Positions 2,263 to 21,659 of a stretch of DNA of 21,659 bases are shown one piece after another (the stretch's first letter is position 1; the number at the start of each line of letters is the position of its first letter). Below the pieces are notes generated by a model. That model did no database searches, had not been told where the DNA came from, and saw only the letters and a program-made list of their open reading frames with translations. This DNA comes from a virus. The translations under genes were made by a program, and so were the position numbers. The DNA lies in IMG/VR virus record IMGVR_UViG_3300025889_001090, positions 1 through 21,659 of that record; one strand, 5' to 3'.

Positions 2263-5200
2263 TGGCTAGATTAGATACATATAAGAGAGACACAGAGATA
2301 AACGGTTTAGATTTCTTAGCTGGATCTTCGTATGTGACCACTGGTATTAATGGTCCGATATACGAAACCACTAAGTTCTCTATGCTAGATTTAGCTAGGT
2401 TCTTTGGTAGCTATACGAATATAAATGGGTTTACGTATGACATAGCCCAGATGTATCAAGATATACAGAACAACATAAGTTCTTTGGCGTCGGTAAGTGT
2501 AAGTATAACAGCTTTGACTGATGCAACACAAGCATTGGCTCAGGTTGATATAGATCTACAAACAGCTTTCTCTAATGGTATTAGTGCTGCCGTGTCTGAG
2601 ATTAACTTAACACTTACATCGTTATCTAATGCTGACTTAGCCTTAGCAAGTGTTGTAACTAATTTAGAGACATCATTTACTACACAGCTCACACAAGCTG
2701 TTTCTACGATTAACACAGAGCTTGTATCACTTACTACCGCGGACTCTGCTTTAGCTACTTCTATAACAGAACTTGAGACAACGTTTAATACGGATCTAAC
2801 AGCCGCTGTAGCTACAATAAACACCGAACTCACTACATTATCAACAGCGGACTCTGCGCTTGCTACGTCGATAACAGAACTAGAAACTACATTTACAACA
2901 GACCTAAGCGAAGCTGTTGCAACTATAAATACAGAACTTACTACGCTATCTACGGCGGACGAAGCATTAGCCACTAGTATAACTACGCTAGAAACCACGT
3001 TTACAACTGACTTGGCTACGGCAAACGCGGCCATAACAAACGAGGCTACAACAAGGGCAGCGGCTGATTTAGCAGAGGCTACAGCTAGACAAGCCCTTGA
3101 GACGTCTTTAACTACACAGATAGGTGTTGTAAGTGCTGCTGTTACCTCAGAGCAAACAGCTAGGACTACGGCTGATGAAGCTATAGCTGAAGATATAACA
3201 ACACTTACCGCTGCTATAGCAAACGAAACAACAGCTAGGACAGCGGCAATAACCACAGTTAACCAAGCCATCGTAGATGAAGCATCGGCTAGAACTACAT
3301 CTGATACCACGCTTAACACAGCTATATCTGTAAAACCTAATATATTTAGGCAACCATCGGCGCCGGCGGTCACAGAACCTGTAGGTAGTGTATGGTACGA
3401 TACTGACGACAACAACAAGACTTATGTATTAGTTGCTGGTACGCCAAGGGTTTGGACAGCAACTGATGACGCTAGGATCGGAGCCACAATAACTTCACTT
3501 GCTACAGCGCAAGAGTCAATAGGTACGTTATCTACAAACTTAAGCTCAGAGGCAACTAAAATAACAAAGCTTCAAGCCCAATATACGTTTGATGCTAGTG
3601 GTGATGTAAACGGTTTAGCTAGTGGCGCGATCGTATCTAACGCGGTTAACGATGCTTACTCATCTGCTGTAGCTGACGCTGGAAGTGCTACCGCCACCGC
3701 TATAACAAACTTGTCTGCCACTATATCTAAGGTATATAGGCAAGACGCAGAGCCAACTGGTACAATACCGACAAACTCCATATGGTATGATACTAACGAT
3801 GGAAACAAAAGCTACGTATACAACGGTAGCGCTTGGATATATACTGTGGATGCTACGCTTGCAACTACAGCATCGGTTAGTACTGTTCAGAGCGCAGTTA
3901 ATGATATAAACGGTAATTTAAATGCTCAGTATGGTTTAAAGGTTTCAGCTGGTGGTGCTATCGCTGGTATGACTTTATCTGCTAGTGCTACAGACGCAGG
4001 GGCAACCTCAGCGGTTGTTTTCCAAGCGGATCAATTCAACATAAAGACAGACAGTGGAACTAAAACGCCTTTTAGCGTATCAGGTGACACTGTAACCATG
4101 TCTAATGTGGTTGTAGCTGGTACAGTATCTATAGGTGGAACTACGGCATCTACGTTGGTTTCAAACGCATCTATAGGTGCTACAGCGATACAACCTAGCG
4201 ACAACATATCAGCACTTACAAACGATGCTGGATTTCAAAACTCAACACAGGTTAACGCTGCTGATAAAACAGACGGAACTGTTGCTGGTTGGAGTATAGA
4301 CTCAAACTATATTTGGTCTGGTACCAAGCAAACAACAAACGGGTACTCAACGTCTGGTATAACAATGTTTAATGGTGGAGCTATAAGAACCCCACAATTT
4401 TATATCGATCATACAAATGGTAACGCGTATTTTAAAGGAACTATAACCGTTGGTGAAACAATACTAACAGAGACTAATACTTTAAACGTTAACACAACTA
4501 AAACAGATGTTGGTCTAGGAAACGTAGACAACACGTCTGATGCTACTGTTCTTGCAAACGCAGCAACAGCTGCCAATAGCGCAACTAAAACAGCTGGAGC
4601 AGTTGGACCTGTAACTATAACCGCTACATCGCTTTATCAAGGAGCTGGTAACTTTGGCAATGCAGACACTGGTTTCTTCTTAAACAACGAAGGTAAGTTT
4701 TCGTTAAAAGACAAACTAACTTTTGATGGAACGAGTTTGACTGTTAACGGTAGTGGTACTTTCACTGGTTCTCTTTCTGGTGCTAGTATAACTGGAGCAA
4801 CTGGAACTTTTTCAGGAGCTTTTTCAGCCGGTAACATAACTATAAATGCATATGCTACACCTTCAATCGATCTAGAGTATGATGGATCTGGCGGAAGTAG
4901 ATATATAAACTTCAGAGATGCCTCTAACAACATAGCTGCTCAGTTAGCTTACAACAATACTGGTAGTTATTTTTCTATAGCTGGTTCAACAAAAGATATT
5001 CAAATATCACCAGGTACTGGAAAGGAAGTTAAGATATTCAACAATGTAAGGTTAGCAAACGCAGGAACGCCAAATATACTATTAACAGATCTTACGACGT
5101 ATCATTCATATACTGGTTCAGTATCAAACACGCTACAAAAGCACTACCAAAAATTACCAGGAGGCGTGATAATGCAGTGGGGTTACCAAAGCGGTTCTTC

Positions 5201-5832: not shown

Positions 5833-6117
5833 ATGACTTATTTTTACAGAACCGTTACGACGTCTCAAGGAGATGGTCGTATCCCAGAAGAAACCAGGAA
5901 GCTATGGGAAGCTATCATCGAAAAAAAGAACTGGAGAATTGTTCAATTACCAAACCAATACTACCAAGCCGAGTACCACGATGGCGAAGTCTGGAAGGAT
6001 GTAACAAGACGCGAAACAATTGAAAGTTGTGAAGCAGCAATTGATGCATCAATAGATTTCTACAAGCGTAGACTTGAACTGGCTAAAGGACCAGTTGTAG
6101 TAAAAACCTTTGAATAA
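5833..6117 (+). CDS. 94-aa hypothetical protein
   Basis: Soluble, mixed-charge protein: a short beta start (MTYFYRTVTTSQGDGRI), a helix (PEETRKLWEAIIEKK), a two-strand stretch with several aromatics (WRIVQLPNQYYQAEYHDGE) and a C-terminal helix (ESCEAAIDASIDFYKRRLE). I do not recognise the family with confidence. It follows the shared leader element and precedes groEL by 28 bases, so it may be the first gene of the chaperonin transcript. Whether it is a chaperonin cofactor or simply a neighbour cannot be told from the sequence. Confidence 0.7.
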   Translation: MTYFYRTVTTSQGDGRIPEETRKLWEAIIEKKNWRIVQLPNQYYQAEYHDGEVWKDVTRRETIESCEAAIDASIDFYKRRLELAKGPVVVKTFE

Positions 6118-6145: not shown

Positions 6146-7696
6146 ATGGAATACAATAACCCAAGTGAGTTGATTAAAGATCTAGCCTTTGGAAACGAAG
6201 CTAGTGAAAAGATAATTTCCGGAGTTGACAAACTAGCAAGAGCAGTTAAGTCAACATTAGGGGCTTCTGGTAAGTGTGTTATATACGAGGACAGCATGGG
6301 CAAACCCGTAATAACAAAAGATGGTGTTACAGTCGCAGAATCGGTTGTGCTTTTCGACCCAGTTGAAAACATCGGAGCGACACTTATTAAAGAAGCCGCC
6401 AAAAACACAGTGAAAGAGGCAGGTGACGGTACTACAACAGCTACCGTCCTTGCCCAAGCACTGTTAAGAGAGATACGAGATAGAAATCCTAAGTCTATAA
6501 GAGAAGTTAAGATAGGTATTGAAAAAGGTCTGGAGAAAATTAACAAATATCTTGATGATACAAAAATCGAAGTTAAAGATAACATGCTTCGTAGCGTCGC
6601 AAGTATTTCTTGTAATAACGATGTATTTCTCGGTAGTATTGTATCCGAGGCTTTTGAAAAGGTTGGGAAGAACGGAGTAGTTCTAATGGAAGAGTCGGAG
6701 GATGAAAAAACTTACGTAGACGTTATTGACGGCGCGCAGTTTTCGTCAGGACTTAAATCACAGCACTTAGCTACTAACGACGAAAAGACTAAGGCCATAT
6801 TAGAAAGACCTTATGTTCTAGTAGTTGCTTCACCAATCACAAACCTAAGAAAAATCATAAGCATCATGGAGCTAGTCATTAAAAATGACAGAAGCTTGTT
6901 GATAGTTGGTAATGTTGAACAACAACCATCTGCAGCACTTATGATGAACAAAGTAAAAGGTAACGCTAAAGTTAACTTTGTAGATCCACCTGGTTTTGGG
7001 CAAACTAAAATCGAAGCTATGGAGGATATTGCAGTTTTAACTGGAGCTACACTTATAAATGAAGAACTAGGTGATGATATGGATTTAATCACGCCAGATG
7101 TTCTAGGTGAGGCTAAAAAAGCTGTAACTGATAACTCTACTACAATCATAACTATAGATGGTATGCCTGAAGCTGTTCAGGAACGCATTAAGATCATCAA
7201 GGATAAGATTAAAACAGAAACTAATCCTTTCCTTAAGAAAAAACACGAGGAACGCCTAGCGACGCTCTCTGGAGCCGTAGCGATAGTTAAGGTTGGTGCT
7301 GAGTCTAAAGTAGAGTTAAAAGAAAAGAAAGACAGAGTAGAAGATGCTATTTTCGCAGTTAAAGCTGCTTTGAAAGAAGGCATTGTAGCTGGTGGTGGCG
7401 TTGCGCTTGTTGACGCTAGTAAAAAACTAGATATTATGAATATTGGTGAATCAATACTAGCTAATGCAATAACCGCTCCATACAGGACAATACTTGAAAA
7501 CGCCGGTATAGATTTGTTCTACACTGGTAAACAAAACTACGGCGTTAATGTTGTAACAGGTGAATCAGTGAATATGATTGATGCTGGTGTAATAGATCCA
7601 GTGCTTGTGACTAAAACAGCGTTAAAGAACGCTATAAGTGTTGTAAATACTATAGTTTCTGCTGATTGTGTAATTTCTAATATGCGTCAATCATGA
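6146..7696 (+). CDS. groEL: Phage-encoded chaperonin GroEL (Hsp60, group I)
   Basis: A full-length group I chaperonin of 516 residues; the bacterial protein is about 545. It should form a ring complex that folds proteins with ATP. The nucleotide-site residues are all present: ITKDGV with D59, GDGTTTATVLAQ with D94 and RVEDA with D400, matching E. coli D52, D87 and D398. The apical domain spans about residues 190-375, including PGFG. Two departures stand out. The nearly invariant apical segment GYLSPYF reads GLKSQHL (202-208), replacing the aromatics that help bind substrate and GroES. The Gly-Gly-Met tail is absent; the protein ends ISNMRQS. The gene overlaps groES by ATGA. Its place among tail genes suggests a role in virion protein folding. 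Confidence 0.97.
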   Translation: MEYNNPSELIKDLAFGNEASEKIISGVDKLARAVKSTLGASGKCVIYEDSMGKPVITKDGVTVAESVVLFDPVENIGATLIKEAAKNTVKEAGDGTTTATVLAQALLREIRDRNPKSIREVKIGIEKGLEKINKYLDDTKIEVKDNMLRSVASISCNNDVFLGSIVSEAFEKVGKNGVVLMEESEDEKTYVDVIDGAQFSSGLKSQHLATNDEKTKAILERPYVLVVASPITNLRKIISIMELVIKNDRSLLIVGNVEQQPSAALMMNKVKGNAKVNFVDPPGFGQTKIEAMEDIAVLTGATLINEELGDDMDLITPDVLGEAKKAVTDNSTTIITIDGMPEAVQERIKIIKDKIKTETNPFLKKKHEERLATLSGAVAIVKVGAESKVELKEKKDRVEDAIFAVKAALKEGIVAGGGVALVDASKKLDIMNIGESILANAITAPYRTILENAGIDLFYTGKQNYGVNVVTGESVNMIDAGVIDPVLVTKTALKNAISVVNTIVSADCVISNMRQS

Positions 7697-7950
7697 AAGC
7701 GGTAAACTACTACATAATCGTAGACAAAATAAAACAAGAGCCATTAAAGCAGAACGGGCTTATAATGACTGAGAGTATCGAAACAGATGTTAGATACCTG
7801 AAAGGTAAAGTTATTAGCTGCGGAGAAATGACACAAGGCTTATCAGAAGGAGATATTATATATTACGACAAACACGCTGGACATGGTATAAGTTTCGATG
7901 ATAAACTGTACTATGTTATAAAACAAGGCGATGTAGTTATTGTTGAATAA
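7693..7950 (+). CDS. groES: Co-chaperonin GroES (Hsp10)
   Basis: An 85-residue co-chaperonin that should cap the GroEL ring. A strand near the start (VNYYIIVDKI) is followed by a mobile loop (about residues 15-33) with LIM at 23-25, where E. coli has the GroEL-binding IVL. Then come the barrel strands KGKVISCG (37-44), SEGDIIYYD (51-59) and KLYYVIKQGDVVIVE (71-85). The segment between CG and EGD is much shorter than in E. coli GroES, so the roof hairpin seems to be missing and the dome may be open, as described for T4 gp31. The start ATG overlaps the groEL stop (ATGA), and the stop overlaps the next ATG (TAATG), so expression is coupled on both sides. Confidence 0.93.
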   Translation: MKAVNYYIIVDKIKQEPLKQNGLIMTESIETDVRYLKGKVISCGEMTQGLSEGDIIYYDKHAGHGISFDDKLYYVIKQGDVVIVE

Positions 7951-8390
7951 TGAGGATAGATCCAGAAGATTTAAGAGAAATGCAATTGTTTAAGTATTAC
8001 AGGCTCGTTAGAAAATGGGCCTGTAAAACTAACAAGCTTAATGATGCAGACTTAGAATTATTAATCTATTTAGATTGCATTGGTCGATTTACGCGTAATG
8101 ATTTCATTAATGGGGTTTATACATATAAATGGGATAAACACCGCTGGGAAAGACTAAGGAATGAAGGTTGGATAGATGTGTGGAGGAATAGAAACGGTAC
8201 CACAATAAAGTACAGTATATTCCAAACGTCATTTAAAGCTAAGTTGTTAATTAACAGGATATATAAGATATTGCTAGGCAAAGAAGATATACCTCATAAA
8301 GACAACAATGTATTTTATAAAGGAACAAGATACTCAGACAAGGTATATGGAAAAGCCCTTGATGATATGTTAAAAGATAAAACTAGATAA
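7950..8390 (+). CDS. 146-aa probable winged-helix protein
   Basis: The predicted layout fits a MarR-like winged helix: helix NDADLELLIYLDCIG (31-45), short helix FTRNDFIN (47-54), recognition-type helix YKWDKHRWERLRNEGW (59-74), a beta wing (IDVWRNRNGTTIKYSI, 75-90) and a long helix (FKAKLLINRIYKILLG). The C-terminus is basic and polar. I recall relatives near structural genes of Bacteroidota phages. It may regulate late genes or bind DNA during assembly; the sequence does not say which. It starts inside the groES stop (TAATG) and ends two bases before the next small gene. Confidence 0.65.
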   Translation: MRIDPEDLREMQLFKYYRLVRKWACKTNKLNDADLELLIYLDCIGRFTRNDFINGVYTYKWDKHRWERLRNEGWIDVWRNRNGTTIKYSIFQTSFKAKLLINRIYKILLGKEDIPHKDNNVFYKGTRYSDKVYGKALDDMLKDKTR

Positions 8391-14776: not shown

Positions 14777-17180
14777 GGCAAAGCTAATAGCTGACGGTGT
14801 AATAACCGTAGGTAATCTTCACGAATCACACGGAATAACAACTACACATATAGGTGAAGGAGATAAATTATTCTACACTGACACAAGAGTTAGTAATTAT
14901 TTATCCGCAAACAACTATATTACAACAAGTGATGTTCCTAATTTAGAAACAGTAACTAGCCTTAGTATTAGTGCTAACATACTTAGCTACACAAACGAGG
15001 CTGGTGTAACTACTGACGTTGATTTATCTACTTACTTAGACGACACAAACCTAGCTAGGTTAGTTTCTGGAACATTGAATCCAGGTACTGGTATCGCAAC
15101 GTTTACCAGAGACGATTCTAGCACGTTTACAATCGATTTCTCAGCGTTTCTAGCTGATGCTAATGATTATGTATCCTCAGGAAGTTTTAACACGTCTACA
15201 GGCGTCCTAACACTTACAAGATTAGGCGGTGGAACTGTGACTGTTGACTTAGATGGTAAGTATGCTGAGGCTTCACACACACACCTATGGTCACACATAA
15301 CAGATAGACCTACTGCTTTATCTGCGTTTACTAATGATCTAGGTAACTACGGAGGGTTCTTAACCTCGTTTACTGAAACAGACCCTGTTTATACCGCGTC
15401 GTCTTGGTATACTACAATTAACAATTCTAGTAATTGGAATACGGCTTATGGCTGGGGTAACCACGCGACAGTTGGCTATTTAACCTCATTTACAGAAACT
15501 GATCCAACTGTACCATCACACGTTAAGTCAATCACTTCTACTAACATAAGCAACTGGAACACCGCTTATGGGTGGGGTAACCATGCCAACGCTGGTTATC
15601 AAGCCGCAGCAACAGCTATAACTACTTCAAACATAGGATCACAAATAGTTAATCAGGCTGATAGATTACGTGCTTACAGTGCTGGAGCAACACCTCAAAG
15701 TGCTAACTCATTTGGTTTAGGTGTTTTATCTAATTATTACGGAGGTGGTCAAATTACTGATATTCCAGAGGGCGCGTATGGCTCGCTATATAACTTTGGC
15801 GGTTACGACGCAAGTAGCTTGTCAATGCAAATGTTCTTAGGTGTAAACCATAATTCTACCTCGTCCACTAGAAGCTTATTCTTCAGAATGGGTAATAATT
15901 TAGGTTTTCAAAACGATTGGAAACAAGTTATAGATTCTAGCAACATAGGAAGTCAGTCTGTTAATTATGCTGCAAGTGCTGGAACAGCAACTGACTCAAG
16001 TAAGCTGCCATTAACAGGTGGTACACTTTCTGGAACCCTAATATTAGGAAGCACTGCATCTGCTGGGTCTTCCGCAATATTAAACACCAATGGATTTATT
16101 AGAGTAGCGGAGCATGTTATAATACATAATCCATCTAATCTTGCTATGGCTCAGGGTATTAGTTGGGATTCATCTACTAACGGACTTTACACTTATAATG
16201 AAAGTTCTACTGGTACACTAAGAGCCACTGGCTCAATGCGAGCTCCTATATTCTACGATAGCGATGATACTGGGTACTATGTTGATCCAAATAGCGAATC
16301 AAAACTGCGCAAGTTATGGATAAACAATGGTGGAGCTAATGGCGTTTCATGGTCCTCAGGATTAAACATGGGCGACGCTTCTAACTACTGGAACTTAATA
16401 CAAGATGCAGGAACTGCTAGGCAAAGAAATTTTGGTACTGGTGGATATGATTGGTATAATAATTCTGCTTCAACGCAAATAATGTTATTAAGCAATGGTG
16501 GAGATTTGACTACTTCTTCGTCAATGCGCGCTCCAATCTTCTACGACACTAACAACACTGCTCATTATATAGATCCATCAGGTGGCTCTAATATTAGAAA
16601 TCTATATGTTGGCGACCCAGGTGACTCTTGGTCAGATCCAGGCGGTTGGGGCACTCAAGTAAGGTTTAGCAACGGTCCACACGTTAGATTTGTGTTACAT
16701 GCTAGAACACCTGAAATTCAAGCTGGTATGTATGTACATACTCCAAGCTCGGTATTCATTGGAAGTTATACAGCACACCCAGTGAACATGATGGTTGGTG
16801 GAAATAGTAGGCTTCTTATAGAAGACAGTAGAGTGTATTCTCATGTTTATTCTGAGGCAGCTGGTTCTTCAAGAGCCCCAATATTCTACGATAGTAACGA
16901 CACCGGATATTACTTGAATCCAGCTGGTAACAGTGTATTAACTACTGCAACATTTAATGTAAATGCATCTTCTACTTTATCAATTATTGCAGGTGGAACA
17001 AATGCTACTGTAATAAGAGCTGCAGCTGGAGATGAATTATATATTGGTGGTAATGATAGCTGGCAGATGAGATTTAATGGAGGCAATGTTTTAATGGATA
17101 ACGGCGGTTATCTTCAAAACAATACTTCAATTAGAGCCCCAATCTTCTACGACGCTAACAACACAGGGTATTATGTTGAT
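13091..17180 (+). repeat. Dispersed RAPIFYDSND-type repeats across two fibre genes
   Basis: Eight clear copies of a roughly 25-residue unit (R-[AS]-P-[IV]-F-Y-D-[STA]-[ND]-[DN]-[TS]-x-x-[YF]-[YFV]-[LVI]-[DN]-P) begin at 13091, 13442, 13793, 14174, 16239, 16527, 16872 and 17133; a degenerate copy lies near 17742. In the first gene the spacing is 117, 117 and 127 codons; in the second it is 96, 115 and 87. Sequence between copies varies. The pattern suggests repeated shaft joints with exchangeable domains between them. Confidence 0.8.
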
Positions 17181-18146
17181 CCAAATAATACTAGTAATTT
17201 ATCTACATTAAACATAGAGGCTAGTAACTCAATAGTAATGTACAAGTCTCAGACTGTAAATATGTCTGGAGCGGAATACAGCACATCTAACTACTATCCT
17301 GTAATTATAAGTGTTCCTGTTGATGGGGTTTTAATAGAAATACAAAATAACTTGAACTCCAATATACCTTCATGGTCAGGTCATGGCGGTGGATTTACAC
17401 TAAATCTTAGATGGTGGGTAAATGGAAGCGGATGGGGAACAACAGATATAAAAAGAAAAGTTTACCAATGGCATGAGAGATTTGCAAATTTAAGAATATG
17501 TGGTGGTATAACACAAATGTATACATCCAGCCAAGAGGTTGTTTACTTGCGAGGCGGTGGTGTCTATTATTTTAGGTTCAGTAAAAACTTAAATGCAACG
17601 CCTTATTCTTCCAACTACACCAATTCATATAATAACGAGGTTGCTAACGTTACTTCTTCACCTATAAATAGTGTATGGGAGGCTGCGGCTGGTAATGAAG
17701 CTTACTACGCTGAAGATATATATACTTCAAATATCCAGTCTTATGTATATTATGATCGAAATAGCACATCTTACTACCTAGACGCATCTTCAACTGGTGA
17801 TTCATTAAGAGTAGCAGGAGATGTTGTGGCATATTACTCTGATGAAAGATTAAAAAACATTGAATGCAACATTCCTGACGCTATAGAAAAGGTAAAATCT
17901 TTAAATGGTTTTTATTACACAGCTAATGAGACAGCGCAAAAACTAGGATATAAGGAAGGAAGACAAGTTGGTTTATCCGCGCAAGAGGTTGAGGCTATTA
18001 TGCCGGAGGTTGTAAAAGAAGCTGCTATTGGTAAGGGATATAAAACACTAGACTATTCCAAAATAATACCTCTTTTAGTAGAAGCTATAAAAGAACAGCA
18101 AAAACAAATTGACGAACTAAAAGCAATTATAAATGGCACTACCTAG
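14763..18146 (+). CDS. 1127-aa tail fibre with peptidase S74-type chaperone tip, paralogue of the preceding gene
   Basis: The start (MAITKAKLIADGVITVGNL) is followed by beta modules, WGNH...SFTETDP repeats (about residues 200-275) and the TGTATDSS...LPLTGGTL link (about 403-425). Four R-A-P-I-F-Y-D units start at residues 493, 589, 704 and 791; a degenerate fifth (YYDRNSTSYYLD) begins near 994. Domains of about 60-90 residues, different from each other, are inserted between units. A longer unique domain with WSGHGGG and several Trp follows the fourth unit. The C-terminus is a classic S74 chaperone: SDERLKNIE with S1026 and K1031, then GLSAQEVEAIMPEVV and a coiled coil. It presumably works beside the 1206-aa fibre, perhaps with a different receptor. 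The stop is TAG, unlike most neighbours. Confidence 0.88.
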   Translation: MAITKAKLIADGVITVGNLHESHGITTTHIGEGDKLFYTDTRVSNYLSANNYITTSDVPNLETVTSLSISANILSYTNEAGVTTDVDLSTYLDDTNLARLVSGTLNPGTGIATFTRDDSSTFTIDFSAFLADANDYVSSGSFNTSTGVLTLTRLGGGTVTVDLDGKYAEASHTHLWSHITDRPTALSAFTNDLGNYGGFLTSFTETDPVYTASSWYTTINNSSNWNTAYGWGNHATVGYLTSFTETDPTVPSHVKSITSTNISNWNTAYGWGNHANAGYQAAATAITTSNIGSQIVNQADRLRAYSAGATPQSANSFGLGVLSNYYGGGQITDIPEGAYGSLYNFGGYDASSLSMQMFLGVNHNSTSSTRSLFFRMGNNLGFQNDWKQVIDSSNIGSQSVNYAASAGTATDSSKLPLTGGTLSGTLILGSTASAGSSAILNTNGFIRVAEHVIIHNPSNLAMAQGISWDSSTNGLYTYNESSTGTLRATGSMRAPIFYDSDDTGYYVDPNSESKLRKLWINNGGANGVSWSSGLNMGDASNYWNLIQDAGTARQRNFGTGGYDWYNNSASTQIMLLSNGGDLTTSSSMRAPIFYDTNNTAHYIDPSGGSNIRNLYVGDPGDSWSDPGGWGTQVRFSNGPHVRFVLHARTPEIQAGMYVHTPSSVFIGSYTAHPVNMMVGGNSRLLIEDSRVYSHVYSEAAGSSRAPIFYDSNDTGYYLNPAGNSVLTTATFNVNASSTLSIIAGGTNATVIRAAAGDELYIGGNDSWQMRFNGGNVLMDNGGYLQNNTSIRAPIFYDANNTGYYVDPNNTSNLSTLNIEASNSIVMYKSQTVNMSGAEYSTSNYYPVIISVPVDGVLIEIQNNLNSNIPSWSGHGGGFTLNLRWWVNGSGWGTTDIKRKVYQWHERFANLRICGGITQMYTSSQEVVYLRGGGVYYFRFSKNLNATPYSSNYTNSYNNEVANVTSSPINSVWEAAAGNEAYYAEDIYTSNIQSYVYYDRNSTSYYLDASSTGDSLRVAGDVVAYYSDERLKNIECNIPDAIEKVKSLNGFYYTANETAQKLGYKEGRQVGLSAQEVEAIMPEVVKEAAIGKGYKTLDYSKIIPLLVEAIKEQQKQIDELKAIINGTT

Positions 18147-18750
18147 TACAGGATCAATATCTATAAGTCAAATAAAGACTGAGCTTGGAAGTTCAAGTAA
18201 TTCACTTAGAACTTTATCATCTCAAGCTGACCAGCCAAAGTCTTCTCCTGACGGTATGTCGGAGTTTAGGGGTTACGTTCAAACACAATACAAAACCGCA
18301 ACAAATCCAAGTAGCTATATAAGTAGAACATACGTTAATGGTACTAGGAATATGAGTGTAACATATCAGTATTTAGCCTTTGGCGGCATGCCGCAAGGGC
18401 CTGTTGTTACAATGGTTAATGAAGACACAGTGAATGCTGACTTTTACAAAGACTTTTCGCAAATGACTGGTCTTGGCTGGGATGGTAGATATGTAGTTTA
18501 TGACTCAACAAATAGAAGATATAATAAAATATCTATTATAGCATATTATGAAAACCCATATCTCGAAACCTTAACAGTTAACGTGAACACGTCTTCACCT
18601 TATGGTGGTAACCCATATTACGTTGGGTGGAACGCGGGTGGGGGAAATGCCGCGTCGCAAACATATACAAGCACAGGATTTACATTAGTGCTCACAACTA
18701 ATAACTATTACCCATACATTGCACTTGACATTGTGTTTGAAATATCTTAA
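18133..18750 (+). CDS. 205-aa tail fibre or adhesin-like protein
   Basis: The N-terminal 48 residues (MALPSTGSISISQIKTELGS to MSEFRGY) form a module I recall from many marine phage tail proteins: ALPxxGxISxSQ, a Leu/Ser-rich helix, then MSEFxGY. It is followed by a Tyr/Asn/Thr-rich beta domain (residues 50-205) with no enzyme motif. It is probably a small virion-attached receptor-binding or decoration protein. The start overlaps the stop of the 1127-aa fibre by 14 bases, in the same arrangement as the junction between the two large fibres, so it is likely produced with them. Confidence 0.7.
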   Translation: MALPSTGSISISQIKTELGSSSNSLRTLSSQADQPKSSPDGMSEFRGYVQTQYKTATNPSSYISRTYVNGTRNMSVTYQYLAFGGMPQGPVVTMVNEDTVNADFYKDFSQMTGLGWDGRYVVYDSTNRRYNKISIIAYYENPYLETLTVNVNTSSPYGGNPYYVGWNAGGGNAASQTYTSTGFTLVLTTNNYYPYIALDIVFEIS

Positions 18751-18761
18751 ACTATAAAACT

Positions 18762-19073
18762 ATGGAATACTTTTTTGAACTATTTGGATTAGAAAAACTA
18801 CAATCAGAAAACGGCCTAGACGGTGTGTTAATATCTGTACATTGGGCATATTATTTAAGAACAGAGACTCCAGCTATTAGAATAGTTAGAGGCATAACAT
18901 ATTTAGATGCGCCGGACGCTGAGACTTTCACTCCTTTTAATGAGTTAACTAAAGAACAAATAATAGGTTGGCTAGAAACTAAACTTGATATTGTAGCATT
19001 ACAGGAAAGATTAGTATATTTGTCTACTTTTGAAAATCAACCGGATATGTTACCGGCTGTCTTTAACCAATAA
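18762..19073 (+). CDS. 103-aa small phage protein, relative of the 19098 product
   Basis: A beta-rich first half (GLDGVLISVHWAYYLRTE) is followed by DAPDAETFTPFNELTKEQIIGWLETKL (about residues 50-77). The same order occurs in the next gene: GAPNAENFTPLASITEENVIEWAK. The pattern of strands, then F-[IT]-P-[FY], then a helix ending in I-x-W, matches a small family of phage proteins that I recall as DUF7936-like, found after tail genes. Function is not established. The start ATG follows AAACTATAAAACT, with no Shine-Dalgarno sequence. Confidence 0.7.
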   Translation: MEYFFELFGLEKLQSENGLDGVLISVHWAYYLRTETPAIRIVRGITYLDAPDAETFTPFNELTKEQIIGWLETKLDIVALQERLVYLSTFENQPDMLPAVFNQ

Positions 19074-19097
19074 AAAAAATAATTTAAAACAAAAACT

Positions 19098-19472
19098 ATG
19101 GAAATTACTTACGCATGGAAAATCACGGCTTTGAAAAAAGCACCATCACTGAACGGATTGTCAGATGTGATAACTCACATTAGATTTGACTATACTGGTA
19201 CAGACGCTGTATCTGGAGAGTCTCACACTTTCCACGGAGCTTGCCCAGTTGGCGCGCCTAATGCTGAAAACTTTACGCCTTTAGCATCTATTACAGAAGA
19301 AAATGTAATTGAGTGGGCTAAAGCAAATCACCCAACAGGACACATGAATGAAGTTATTGAGAGAGAAATCAGCAAGAAGATTACTCCTACTAACGAGGAA
19401 GTTACTGAGTTAGAGTGGTTGCAGCCTGCTGCTGTTCCAGCCACGGAACCAGCTGTTGACCCAGGTGCTTAA
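19098..19472 (+). CDS. 124-aa small phage protein (DUF7936-like)
   Basis: Starts MEITYAWKITALKKAPSLNG, continues with LSDVITHIRFDYTGTD (beta strands) and SHTFHGACPVGAPNAENFTP, then a helix (EENVIEWAKANH) and a charged helix (NEVIEREISKKI). It ends in a disordered Pro/Ala-rich tail (about residues 105-124). The core resembles the DUF7936-type phage family (from memory) and is related to the product of 18762. It may be a minor virion or tail assembly protein by neighbourhood. The start is preceded by an A-rich stretch typical of Bacteroidota translation starts. Confidence 0.7.
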   Translation: MEITYAWKITALKKAPSLNGLSDVITHIRFDYTGTDAVSGESHTFHGACPVGAPNAENFTPLASITEENVIEWAKANHPTGHMNEVIEREISKKITPTNEEVTELEWLQPAAVPATEPAVDPGA

Positions 19473-19787: not shown

Positions 19788-19983
19788 TATCGGTAGAGAT
19801 TATAAAACTGATAGTATGCATTACGCCGTAGGTCAAGAGGTCTACGGCGGGCATACAATCTGTGATATTATTGAAGAACAAGATAAATACTCTATTTACA
19901 TACAGAAAGGAAACGAAGTATTACCTTGGAAAGAATTCAATAAGAACATGGCAATCAGTGTAGAATTTAATCTTGAGTACTAA
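19765..19983 (+). CDS. 72-aa hypothetical protein
   Basis: I chose the ATG at 19765 (MKLIRKISIGRDYKTD). A longer frame from 19705 would overlap the coiled-coil gene by 83 bases and add a region that looks like its shadow. The product is beta-rich: MHYAVGQEVYGGHTICDIIE, then KYSIYIQKGNEVLPWKEFN. This resembles a small SH3-like or KOW-like barrel that sets a nucleic-acid or protein contact, but no family is recognised. It ends one base before the double GroES-like gene, so the two are probably made together. Confidence 0.6.
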   Translation: MKLIRKISIGRDYKTDSMHYAVGQEVYGGHTICDIIEEQDKYSIYIQKGNEVLPWKEFNKNMAISVEFNLEY

Positions 19984-19984
19984 A

Positions 19985-20590
19985 ATGAAATCACTTTTCG
20001 ACTTTATTGTTACACCAATAGGTGACAGATACAGTAATAAGAAAAAGATAGGAGACAAGGAGTTAATCCTTAACACTGAAATATCAGGACACGAATTTGT
20101 AAACAGACAGGCTACGGTAATAAGTACACCTATTCTTTACGATGGTCCAATAAAGCCTGGTGATGAAATAATCATACACCATAACGTTTTTAGAAGGTTC
20201 TACGACGTTAGAGGCAATGAAAAAAATAGCAAATCATATTTTAAAGAAGATCAATACTTTTGTCAAGTAGACCAAGTATTTCTTTATAAACAAAACGAAG
20301 AGTGGGTAACACCAGATGATTTTTGTTTTGTAAAACCAATATCCAAGAGAGATAAATTCTCAACCGATAAAGAAGAACCACTGAAAGGTATAGTCAAGTA
20401 TACAAACGTGTGTATAGCAAACATGGGAATACTACAAGGAGATCTAATAGGTTTCACCCCTGAGAGCGAATACGAGTTTATAATAGATGACCAAAGACTA
20501 TACAGAATACCAATTAACTCTATTTCTATTATATATGGACATCAAGGAAACCAAGCGGAATATAATACGAGCTGGGCGACGGGCAGTTGA
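19985..20590 (+). CDS. 201-aa protein with two GroES-like lobes in tandem
   Basis: Each half repeats the order seen in GroES. Lobe 1: FIVTPIGDRY (7-16), a loop with KELILNTEIS (25-34) where GroES has its GroEL-binding mobile loop, QATVIS (42-47), IKPGDEIIIHH (56-66) and FCQVDQVFLYK (92-102). Lobe 2: FCFVKPISKRDKF (113-125), LKGIVKYT (133-140), LQGDLIGFTP (150-159) and RLYRIPINSISIIYG (171-185). Lobe 2 lacks a clear mobile-loop tripeptide. I recall related 200-aa proteins in Bacteroidota phages, sometimes labelled hypothetical and sometimes co-chaperonin. A TTG start at 19973 is possible, but the ATG at 19985, one base after the previous stop, is preferred. The overlap with the next gene is about 56 bases. 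Confidence 0.75.
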   Translation: MKSLFDFIVTPIGDRYSNKKKIGDKELILNTEISGHEFVNRQATVISTPILYDGPIKPGDEIIIHHNVFRRFYDVRGNEKNSKSYFKEDQYFCQVDQVFLYKQNEEWVTPDDFCFVKPISKRDKFSTDKEEPLKGIVKYTNVCIANMGILQGDLIGFTPESEYEFIIDDQRLYRIPINSISIIYGHQGNQAEYNTSWATGS

Positions 20591-20810
20591 CGAACTCATA
20601 AAAGTAGCTGAAGAGCAAATACTAACAGGAGGCGAAGACGATGTAAGTGCTGATAGACTCAAGAACGCTGCTGCTACTAAAAAGCTAGCTATATTTGATG
20701 CTTTTGAAATATTAAACAGGATAGAGCAGGAAGAAAACTTATTGGAAAATAAGCCAGCAGAAGAAAAGCCAGAGGCTTTTAAAGGTTTTGCAGAAAGGAG
20801 GTCTAAATGA
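20535..20810 (+). CDS. 91-aa possible terminase small subunit
   Basis: Mostly helical and charged: DIKETKRNIIRAGRRAVDEL, then VAEEQILTGGEDDVSADRLKNAAATKKLAIFDAFEIL, and an acidic disordered tail before GFAERRSK. A helical protein of this size directly before terL, overlapping it by ATGA, is the usual place for a small terminase subunit, which recognises the DNA and regulates the motor. No DNA-binding motif is clear, so the call rests mainly on position. The frame is open from an ATG at 20487, but that start would overlap the previous gene by 104 bases; the ATG at 20535 reduces this to 56. Neither has a Shine-Dalgarno sequence. Confidence 0.5.
   Translation: MDIKETKRNIIRAGRRAVDELIKVAEEQILTGGEDDVSADRLKNAAATKKLAIFDAFEILNRIEQEENLLENKPAEEKPEAFKGFAERRSK
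20795..20801 (+). promoter_or_regulatory. Unusual Shine-Dalgarno sequence before terL
   Basis: GGAGG within GAAAGGAGGTCTAA lies about six to eight bases before the terL ATG. Nearly all other starts here have A/T-rich leaders without such a site. It also encodes the last codons of the upstream gene (AERRSK), so the match could be incidental. Confidence 0.35.
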
Positions 20811-21659
20811 CAGTCTACGAGCAAACACTTGTAAAAGTTATAGAACCTATAAAACTTAATACATTACATCGTTTAAATAAGTCAAAGTCGTGGAAGTACG
20901 GTTACGATAAAGAAAATGATGTAGTTGTTATAAGTAAAACTGGTCAAATAGGTGAAGTATATGAAATACAAAACCTAAAAATAGCTTTACCGTTACAACC
21001 AAAGGAAATAGCCAATACAAATAATAAATGGCAAGCTAAGGATTATCCTAAAGAGCTTAAGAACATTAAAACTATATTTGACTGGCAAGAGTATCCTGAG
21101 GATTTTAAAAACAAATGGGAGCCATATATAGACCAGGAGTTCACTAGACGTGAAGAAGGTTACTGGTTTGTGAATAACGATAAACCTACTTATATCACCG
21201 GTACACACTATATGTACCTACAGTGGTCTAAGATTGACGTTGGTCAACCTGACTTTCGTGAAGCAAACAGATTATTTTTTATATTCTGGGAAGCTTGCAA
21301 AGCAGATGATAGATGTTACGGTATGTGCTATTTAAAGAACAGACGTTCTGGTTTTTCTTTTATGGCATCTGGAGAAACGGTGAATTTAGCAACAATAACA
21401 TCGGACGGTAGATTTGGTATATTATCAAAGTCTGGATCTGATGCTAAAAAGATGTTCACCGACAAGGTAGTTCCAATATCACTTAACTATCCATTCTTCT
21501 TCAAACCAATACAAGACGGTATGGACCGTCCTAAAACAGAATTAGCTTATAGGGTTCCAGCTTCTAAACTTACTAGAAAGTCAATAACATCTAAAGATCA
21601 ACGAACTCAACTAGAGGGACTTGATACTACTATTGACTGGAAAAATACAGGGGACAACA
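20807..21659 (+). CDS. terL: Terminase large subunit, N-terminal part (cut by window end)
   Basis: 284 residues are visible, with no stop before the edge. This should be the ATPase and nuclease that packs DNA into the head. The N-terminal 90 residues are an unrecognised lead-in. Then come EFTRREEGYWFVNNDKPTYI and TGTHYMYLQWSKIDVGQPDF (about 111-150), REANRLFFIFWEACKADDRC (151-170) and YLKNRRSGFSFMASGE (175-190), a pattern I know from terminases of Bacteroidota phages. The last segment stands where Walker A should be but lacks the usual GK[ST]; K177 or R179-R180 may serve instead. Walker B and the nuclease domain lie outside. An AGGAGG-like Shine-Dalgarno (GAAAGGAGG) eight bases from the ATG is exceptional in this window and may boost terL. 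Confidence 0.8.
   Translation, partial: MTVYEQTLVKVIEPIKLNTLHRLNKSKSWKYGYDKENDVVVISKTGQIGEVYEIQNLKIALPLQPKEIANTNNKWQAKDYPKELKNIKTIFDWQEYPEDFKNKWEPYIDQEFTRREEGYWFVNNDKPTYITGTHYMYLQWSKIDVGQPDFREANRLFFIFWEACKADDRCYGMCYLKNRRSGFSFMASGETVNLATITSDGRFGILSKSGSDAKKMFTDKVVPISLNYPFFFKPIQDGMDRPKTELAYRVPASKLTRKSITSKDQRTQLEGLDTTIDWKNTGDN

Follow-up and report, generated by a model that had tools for sequence, protein, structure and literature searches.

A virus-encoded GroEL with a small GroES and a likely tandem GroES-domain protein: comparative analysis of a possible three-part chaperonin

The 21.7-kb linear viral record analysed here, called the window, encodes a complete GroEL/GroES pair and, before its terminase gene, a third protein in which two GroES-type domains are likely to stand in tandem. 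From these genes and their relatives we consider it probable, with some room for doubt, that the viruses have a virus-specific three-part chaperonin of the group I type, which matches its own two lids by co-adaptation and serves to fold virion proteins. The source viruses are a large ocean group, probably with hosts in the Bacteroidota. An earlier sequence-only reading had described the pair and its changed apical segment, which was confirmed, and had interpreted them as a chaperonin tuned to its own lid and to large fibres, which was supported in part. It contained neither the loss of inter-ring segments in the ring protein nor the tandem lid, and both weigh more than the points it made.

Genes, neighbourhood and co-occurrence

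The genes discussed are as follows.

5833 to 6117 (+): ORF of 94 aa upstream of groEL, function unassigned
6146 to 7696 (+): viral Cpn60 (GroEL-type), 516 aa, intact ORF
7693 to 7950 (+): small lid, Cpn10/GroES, 85 aa, intact ORF
7950 to 8390 (+): ORF of 146 aa downstream of groES, weak match to phrog_17028 (E=3e-4)
19985 to 20590 (+): putative second lid with tandem GroES domains, 201 aa, from PHROG and AF2/Foldseek
20807 to 21659 (+): terminase large subunit (TerL), downstream of the tandem lid gene and running off the contig (phrog_6681, E=4e-54)

Both ORFs of the pair are intact, and the Pfam, PHROG and PDB searches are concordant, so the pair is complete as had been claimed. In Pfam, the ring protein matches Cpn60_TCP1 with E=3.6e-55 (PF00118, 188 bits against a gathering score of 34.3) and the small protein matches Cpn10 with E=4.2e-9 (PF00166, 36.8 against 21.1 bits), while the 516-aa ORF matches the GroEL profile of PHROG with E=2e-134. 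The groEL stop and the groES start overlap by 4 bp (ATGA). The order of the two genes is EL-ES, whereas in bacterial GroEL/GroES it is ES-EL.

For the comparison of sequences, the viral set consisted of the best 80 loci among 253 viral stretches with GroEL relatives, and the cellular set of 80 close GroELs among the matches listed, the top ranks being mostly Bacteroidota, together with E. coli. The pair is not a chance product, since the gene occurs in these 80 viral contigs at 62-67% identity and the dN/dS between close pairs of clade genes is about 0.03-0.06. The latter values also indicate that the genes are under purifying selection. The upstream ORF, groEL, groES and the downstream ORF form a constant core (79, 80, 80 and 78 of the 80 loci, respectively), and the fibre genes are inconstant neighbours. 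The two flanking ORFs are candidate chaperonin partners or regulators.

Co-occurrence was evaluated in 34 viral records, namely the window and 33 contigs of 40-72 kb that had been selected for the presence of either GroEL or the tandem gene. Of these records, 33 have GroEL, 33 have the small lid by profile match and 32 have the tandem lid. The complete set is present in 31, and the 3 records lacking one or more genes are all fragments of 40-42 kb. The three-part set also exists in named phages of Bacteroidota, including Flavobacterium elemo, Maribacter Panino and Cellulophaga phi38:1/Calle. By search, elemoC, Panino and ctfjg026 have GroEL, the small lid and the tandem lid, and phi38:1 and Calle_1 have GroEL and the tandem protein, with the small Cpn10 known from annotation. 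The complete 71-kb genome of Cellulophaga phage phi18:3 carries the small GroES (31108-31362) and the tandem lid (41458-42060) and no GroEL, so its lids presumably act on the host ring. On the other hand, the tandem lid was not found by profile search in immuto, DAC19, D504, AR9 and HHBS8_1.

Several loci deserve a separate mention. In Panino, the gene at 68134-68394 (PANI_CDS0109), annotated as hypothetical, matches the small-lid profile with E=5e-11 and adjoins groEL. In Bacteroides phage DAC19, two genes annotated as hypothetical (2718-4617) resemble GroES and GroEL. One 40-kb contig (L041 / G022) contains two different GroEL-GroES pairs, at 17895-19439 and 33719-35251, and represents a phage that has two chaperonins or else an assembly chimera.

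The small lid and the tandem GroES-domain protein

Two features of the small lid are needed here.

7756 to 7770 (+): mobile-loop core GLIMT, the GroEL-binding motif (GIVLT in E. coli GroES)
7822 to 7854 (+): small-lid roof, of which just a short turn remains

The mobile-loop core follows the pattern G[LF]xxT in 25 of 27 relatives and has the hydrophobic core expected of a GroES loop. The roof was estimated by regular expression and by eye, and its approximate lengths are 6 residues in the phage proteins, 10 in flavobacteria and 15 in E. coli. The small lid had been thought to lack a roof hairpin. Its roof segment is indeed short, but this is partly a host trait, as the GroES of Bacteroidota is already shorter, and roof loss as a phage-specific trait has to be softened. 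A virus-encoded roofless lid is known from T4, whose gp31 has no roof loops and makes the cage larger for a 56-kDa capsid protein (PMC6318259). The window system is similar in this respect and in that it would be expected to help fold a large capsid protein. The difference is that gp31 has one domain and uses the host GroEL, whereas the window phage encodes a ring of its own together with two lid types.

The putative second lid matches the co-chaperonin family phrog_13932 along its full length (E=3.8e-28, profile positions 1-193 of 200); an alternative TTG start at 19973 is possible. Its AF2 model has a pLDDT of 78 and a pTM of 0.72. The first PDB match of this model by Foldseek is 7ekq_R (200 columns, prob 1.00, E=2.6e-3, TM 0.46), a chain of the Chlamydomonas ClpP complex named 'Cpn20 co-chaperonin subunit', which covers both domains and is followed by a run of Cpn10 structures. 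In the viral structure library it matches the phi18:3 'Chaperonin cpn10'. With an E value of 2.6e-3 and a TM of 0.46, the modelled fold of two GroES domains in one chain is likely but not certain. Pfam Cpn10 gave no match to the protein, and a sequence search against PDB chains found none up to E=10. Profile-profile comparison of its halves with GroES gave a weak match from shallow alignments, which makes it a weak proof of two GroES domains; the small-lid profile also matches the C-terminal half of the tandem proteins from phi18:3, phi38:1 and Calle. A search of viral contigs with the tandem alignment confirmed at least 597 relatives. One homologue, with 45% identity to the window protein, lies in MW202828 at 16001-16564 and is annotated as hypothetical. 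The genes upstream of TerL in phi14:2 and cr108 were tried as further homologues and had no profile match.

The closest structural parallel is the Cpn20 of chloroplasts and apicoplasts, which likewise has two GroES domains in tandem and accompanies a single-domain Cpn10. Cpn20 has a mobile loop and a roof in both domains (PMC3542282). In contrast, the tandem lid of the window clade has short roofs and a clear loop core in domain 1 only, where a conserved core of the LILN type resembles the mobile loop of GroES; its domain 2 has just a short loop and no clear mobile loop. In phi18:3, domain 2 carries PSLIYIPEDNKEK, very like a host mobile loop.

The tandem protein may also be GroES-like in fold without being a lid, acting instead in DNA packaging or head assembly. 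Its position upstream of TerL is conserved across families: the distance is mostly 169-252 nt in marine loci, and the genes adjoin directly in elemoC and Panino. This position, the presence of the protein in phi18:3 without any phage GroEL and the missing Pfam Cpn10 match all fit such a role. However, a separate ORF of 107 aa at 20487-20810, which overlaps the end of the tandem gene and has no family match, lies between it and TerL; its position suggests the small terminase subunit. The conserved loop core of domain 1 is like a GroES motif, and in phi18:3 a small GroES accompanies the tandem protein, so that lids in a phage lacking GroEL would fit the host ring. In addition, gp096 is not among the proteins marked as detected by MS in phi18:3. 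We regard the packaging role as unlikely.

Changes in the ring protein

The following segments of the ring protein were located by alignment.

6749 to 6769 (+): apical segment GLKSQHL, residues 202-208 (E. coli 198-204)
7421 to 7450 (+): shortened inter-ring segment at the E434 site, KKLDIMNIGE, 10 aa
7478 to 7540 (+): shortened inter-ring segment at the R452/E461/S463/V464 site, 21 aa

The window GroEL is 40% identical to E. coli GroEL, and its AF2 model (pLDDT 80) has the three-domain GroEL fold, with a Foldseek prob of 1.00 to GroEL structures. The aspartates of the ATP site named earlier (D59, D94 and D400) are kept; they correspond to E. coli D52, D87 and D398, which are invariant in 81/81 sequences as in group I chaperonins, and D495 is likewise kept. 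The intact ATP site and the purifying selection are consistent with the active ring that had been proposed. The Gly-Gly-Met tail is absent, also as described. The protein scores below the cut-off of the NCBI equivalog for bacterial GroEL, TIGR02348 (457.5 against 582.1 bits). The viral clade is monophyletic, lying on one side of a branch that has an SH-aLRT of 100, and its stem measures 1.37 changes per column; the placement of the jumbo-phage GroELs in this tree is unreliable, with branch lengths of 10.

Alignment with E. coli confirmed that GLKSQHL stands in place of GYLSPYF, with Y199 replaced by L, Y203 by H and F204 by L. Among the viral loci, position 199 is L in 62 and I in 18, whereas every one of the 80 cellular GroELs has Y there. 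The presence of the same changes in the GroEL of the host, which the sequence-only reading had named as refuting it, was thus not seen. Position 203 is H in 66/80 and Y in 14/80 of the viral loci, and position 204 is F in 43, L in 31 and W in 6. As a motif common to the viral clade, GLKSQHL therefore stands only in the loss of Tyr199, fixed in 80/80; the rest varies as G[LI][KT]S[PQN][HY][FLW], and the exact motif is a local variant. A rule that phages with the tandem lid lose the SPYF segment also fails, because some clade members keep GLKSPYF. The GroELs of phi38:1/Calle, elemo and Panino, which have 36-39% identity to that of the window, keep Tyr199 and are changed in the next residues.

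Other positions are changed as well. In the 80 clade loci, L234 is always Q (the window has I) and E386 is K in 77; R197 has been lost, and at D83/K327 there is a tendency toward an inverted charge pair. When the columns invariant in cells are considered, 23/63 are kept by the clade in the apical part compared with 67/94 elsewhere (Fisher p=2e-5). The part of the earlier interpretation in which the chaperonin is co-adapted to its own lid is plausible.

The two rings of E. coli GroEL touch around K105/A109/E434 and R452/E461/S463/V464. At both sites, the clade and cellular length ranges are disjoint: the segment aligned with E. coli 424-440 has 9-10 aa in 80/80 clade loci against 15-18 in cellular GroELs, and that aligned with 450-476 has 21-23 aa in 80/80 against 25-28. 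The conserved inter-ring segments of a staggered double ring, which are characteristic of group I, are thus lacking as judged by these lengths, and the AF2 model has no helix in the 461-471 part, where the E. coli helix bears S463/V464. The shortening of both segments in all 80 relatives makes a canonical double ring doubtful. Among other phages, elemoC has just the first site shortened and phi38:1/Calle the second, while the crAss phages phi14:2 and cr108 are short at both; in the 490-494-aa GroELs of phi14:2 and cr108_1 the segments are even shorter than in the window clade.

The jumbo-phage chaperonins set a limit to this argument. OBP and AR9 are single rings and EL separates into single rings (PMC9598537, PMC7185714). 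Unlike the window Cpn60, the AR9 protein is not shortened at the inter-ring segments in our alignment, although it is a single ring (PMC9598537), so the number of rings cannot be read with certainty from segment length. Our comparison predicts an altered ring interface, which does not itself prove a single ring. EL, OBP and AR9 resemble the window protein in being phage-encoded Cpn60s, and OBP has also not retained the R197-E386 pair (PMC9598537). They reportedly function without any lid (PMC9598537), whereas the window Cpn60 is encoded with lids and is far closer to GroEL (40% identity against 22% for EL). Judged from gene content, it would not belong to this lid-less class, since GroES is adjacent in the window and found in 33 of the 34 records.

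When compared with bacterial GroEL/GroES (E. coli, Bacteroidota), the system shares the Cpn60 fold, the ATP residues and a Cpn10 with a mobile loop; it is without Tyr199, R197-E386, the inter-ring segments and the GGM tail, and it adds the tandem lid. The shared part would be enough for a generalist helper, that is, a diverged GroEL/ES that increases folding capacity while working just like that of the host, and the carriage of GroEL by many unrelated phages agrees with it. We find this quite unlikely in view of the fixed apical changes and the losses just listed, the deep and separate clade, the score below the GroEL equivalog cut-off and the retention of a second lid.

Proposed action and clients

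The three parts of the favoured chaperonin would be the Cpn60 ring, a minimal roofless Cpn10 with an overlapping gene, and the tandem lid of two GroES domains encoded before the terminase. The Cpn60 would bind phage proteins in their unfolded state, on an apical face reshaped to suit its own lids. Lids without the usual roof, as in T4 gp31, would then close the ring and give more room, and virion proteins such as the capsid protein would be folded during infection. With the inter-ring contacts lost at both sites, a single ring or non-canonical ring contacts would be most likely. Small and tandem lids may together make up a mixed ring, as in chloroplasts, where Cpn10 and Cpn20 co-assemble into seven-domain lids (PMC5780408). 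A more specific version, with a single-ring chaperonin, a mixed lid of seven domains (three tandem proteins and one small lid, as for chloroplast Cpn10/Cpn20) and a cavity and contacts specialised for virion proteins, seems to us rather doubtful. Against the three-part chaperonin itself stand the lid-less EL, OBP and AR9, the weak scores of the tandem fold and the second domain without a clear mobile loop.

The GroEL of phi38:1 is made during infection, having been found both in infected cells and in samples of free virions (PMC13288928). Its peptides in the latter samples may be carry-over, or they may indicate that the viral GroEL no longer folds proteins by encapsulation and has a virion-associated or host-interfering role. 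Such a role is very improbable, as the ATP site and the pairing with a lid are conserved under strong purifying selection. Least tenable of all is the tuning to tail fibres of 1000-1200 aa proposed in the sequence-only reading: fibre genes do neighbour groEL in the window, but they are inconstant across the 80 loci, two long fibres end in Peptidase_S74 intramolecular chaperone domains, the window has a separate tail-fibre assembly gene (PF16778, Pfam), and fibres of this length exceed the size that GroEL normally encloses.

GroEL in 36 related marine viral genomes was noted earlier (PMC5332604). The tandem gene is already labelled cpn10 or GroES in database records, and in the open-access literature, whose coverage is incomplete, we found no paper that presents it as a tandem lid or that reports the loss of inter-ring segments. 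Marine viruses commonly carry chaperonin genes, and virioplankton chaperonins have reportedly been surveyed more widely by Marine et al. 2017 (cited in PMC7185714). Those phage chaperonins examined to date are, to our knowledge, from jumbo phages and are reported to be lid-independent. The system described here is encoded with two kinds of lid and has fixed changes both at the surface for substrate and lid and at the ring interface. Three questions follow from it: can a natural ring whose inter-ring contacts have been lost run its cycle with a lid, in what way do tandem lids fit onto a ring of seven-fold symmetry, and for which virion proteins is a viral chaperonin required? As related forms exist in the culturable phages Flavobacterium elemo, Cellulophaga phi38:1 and Maribacter Panino, these questions are testable.
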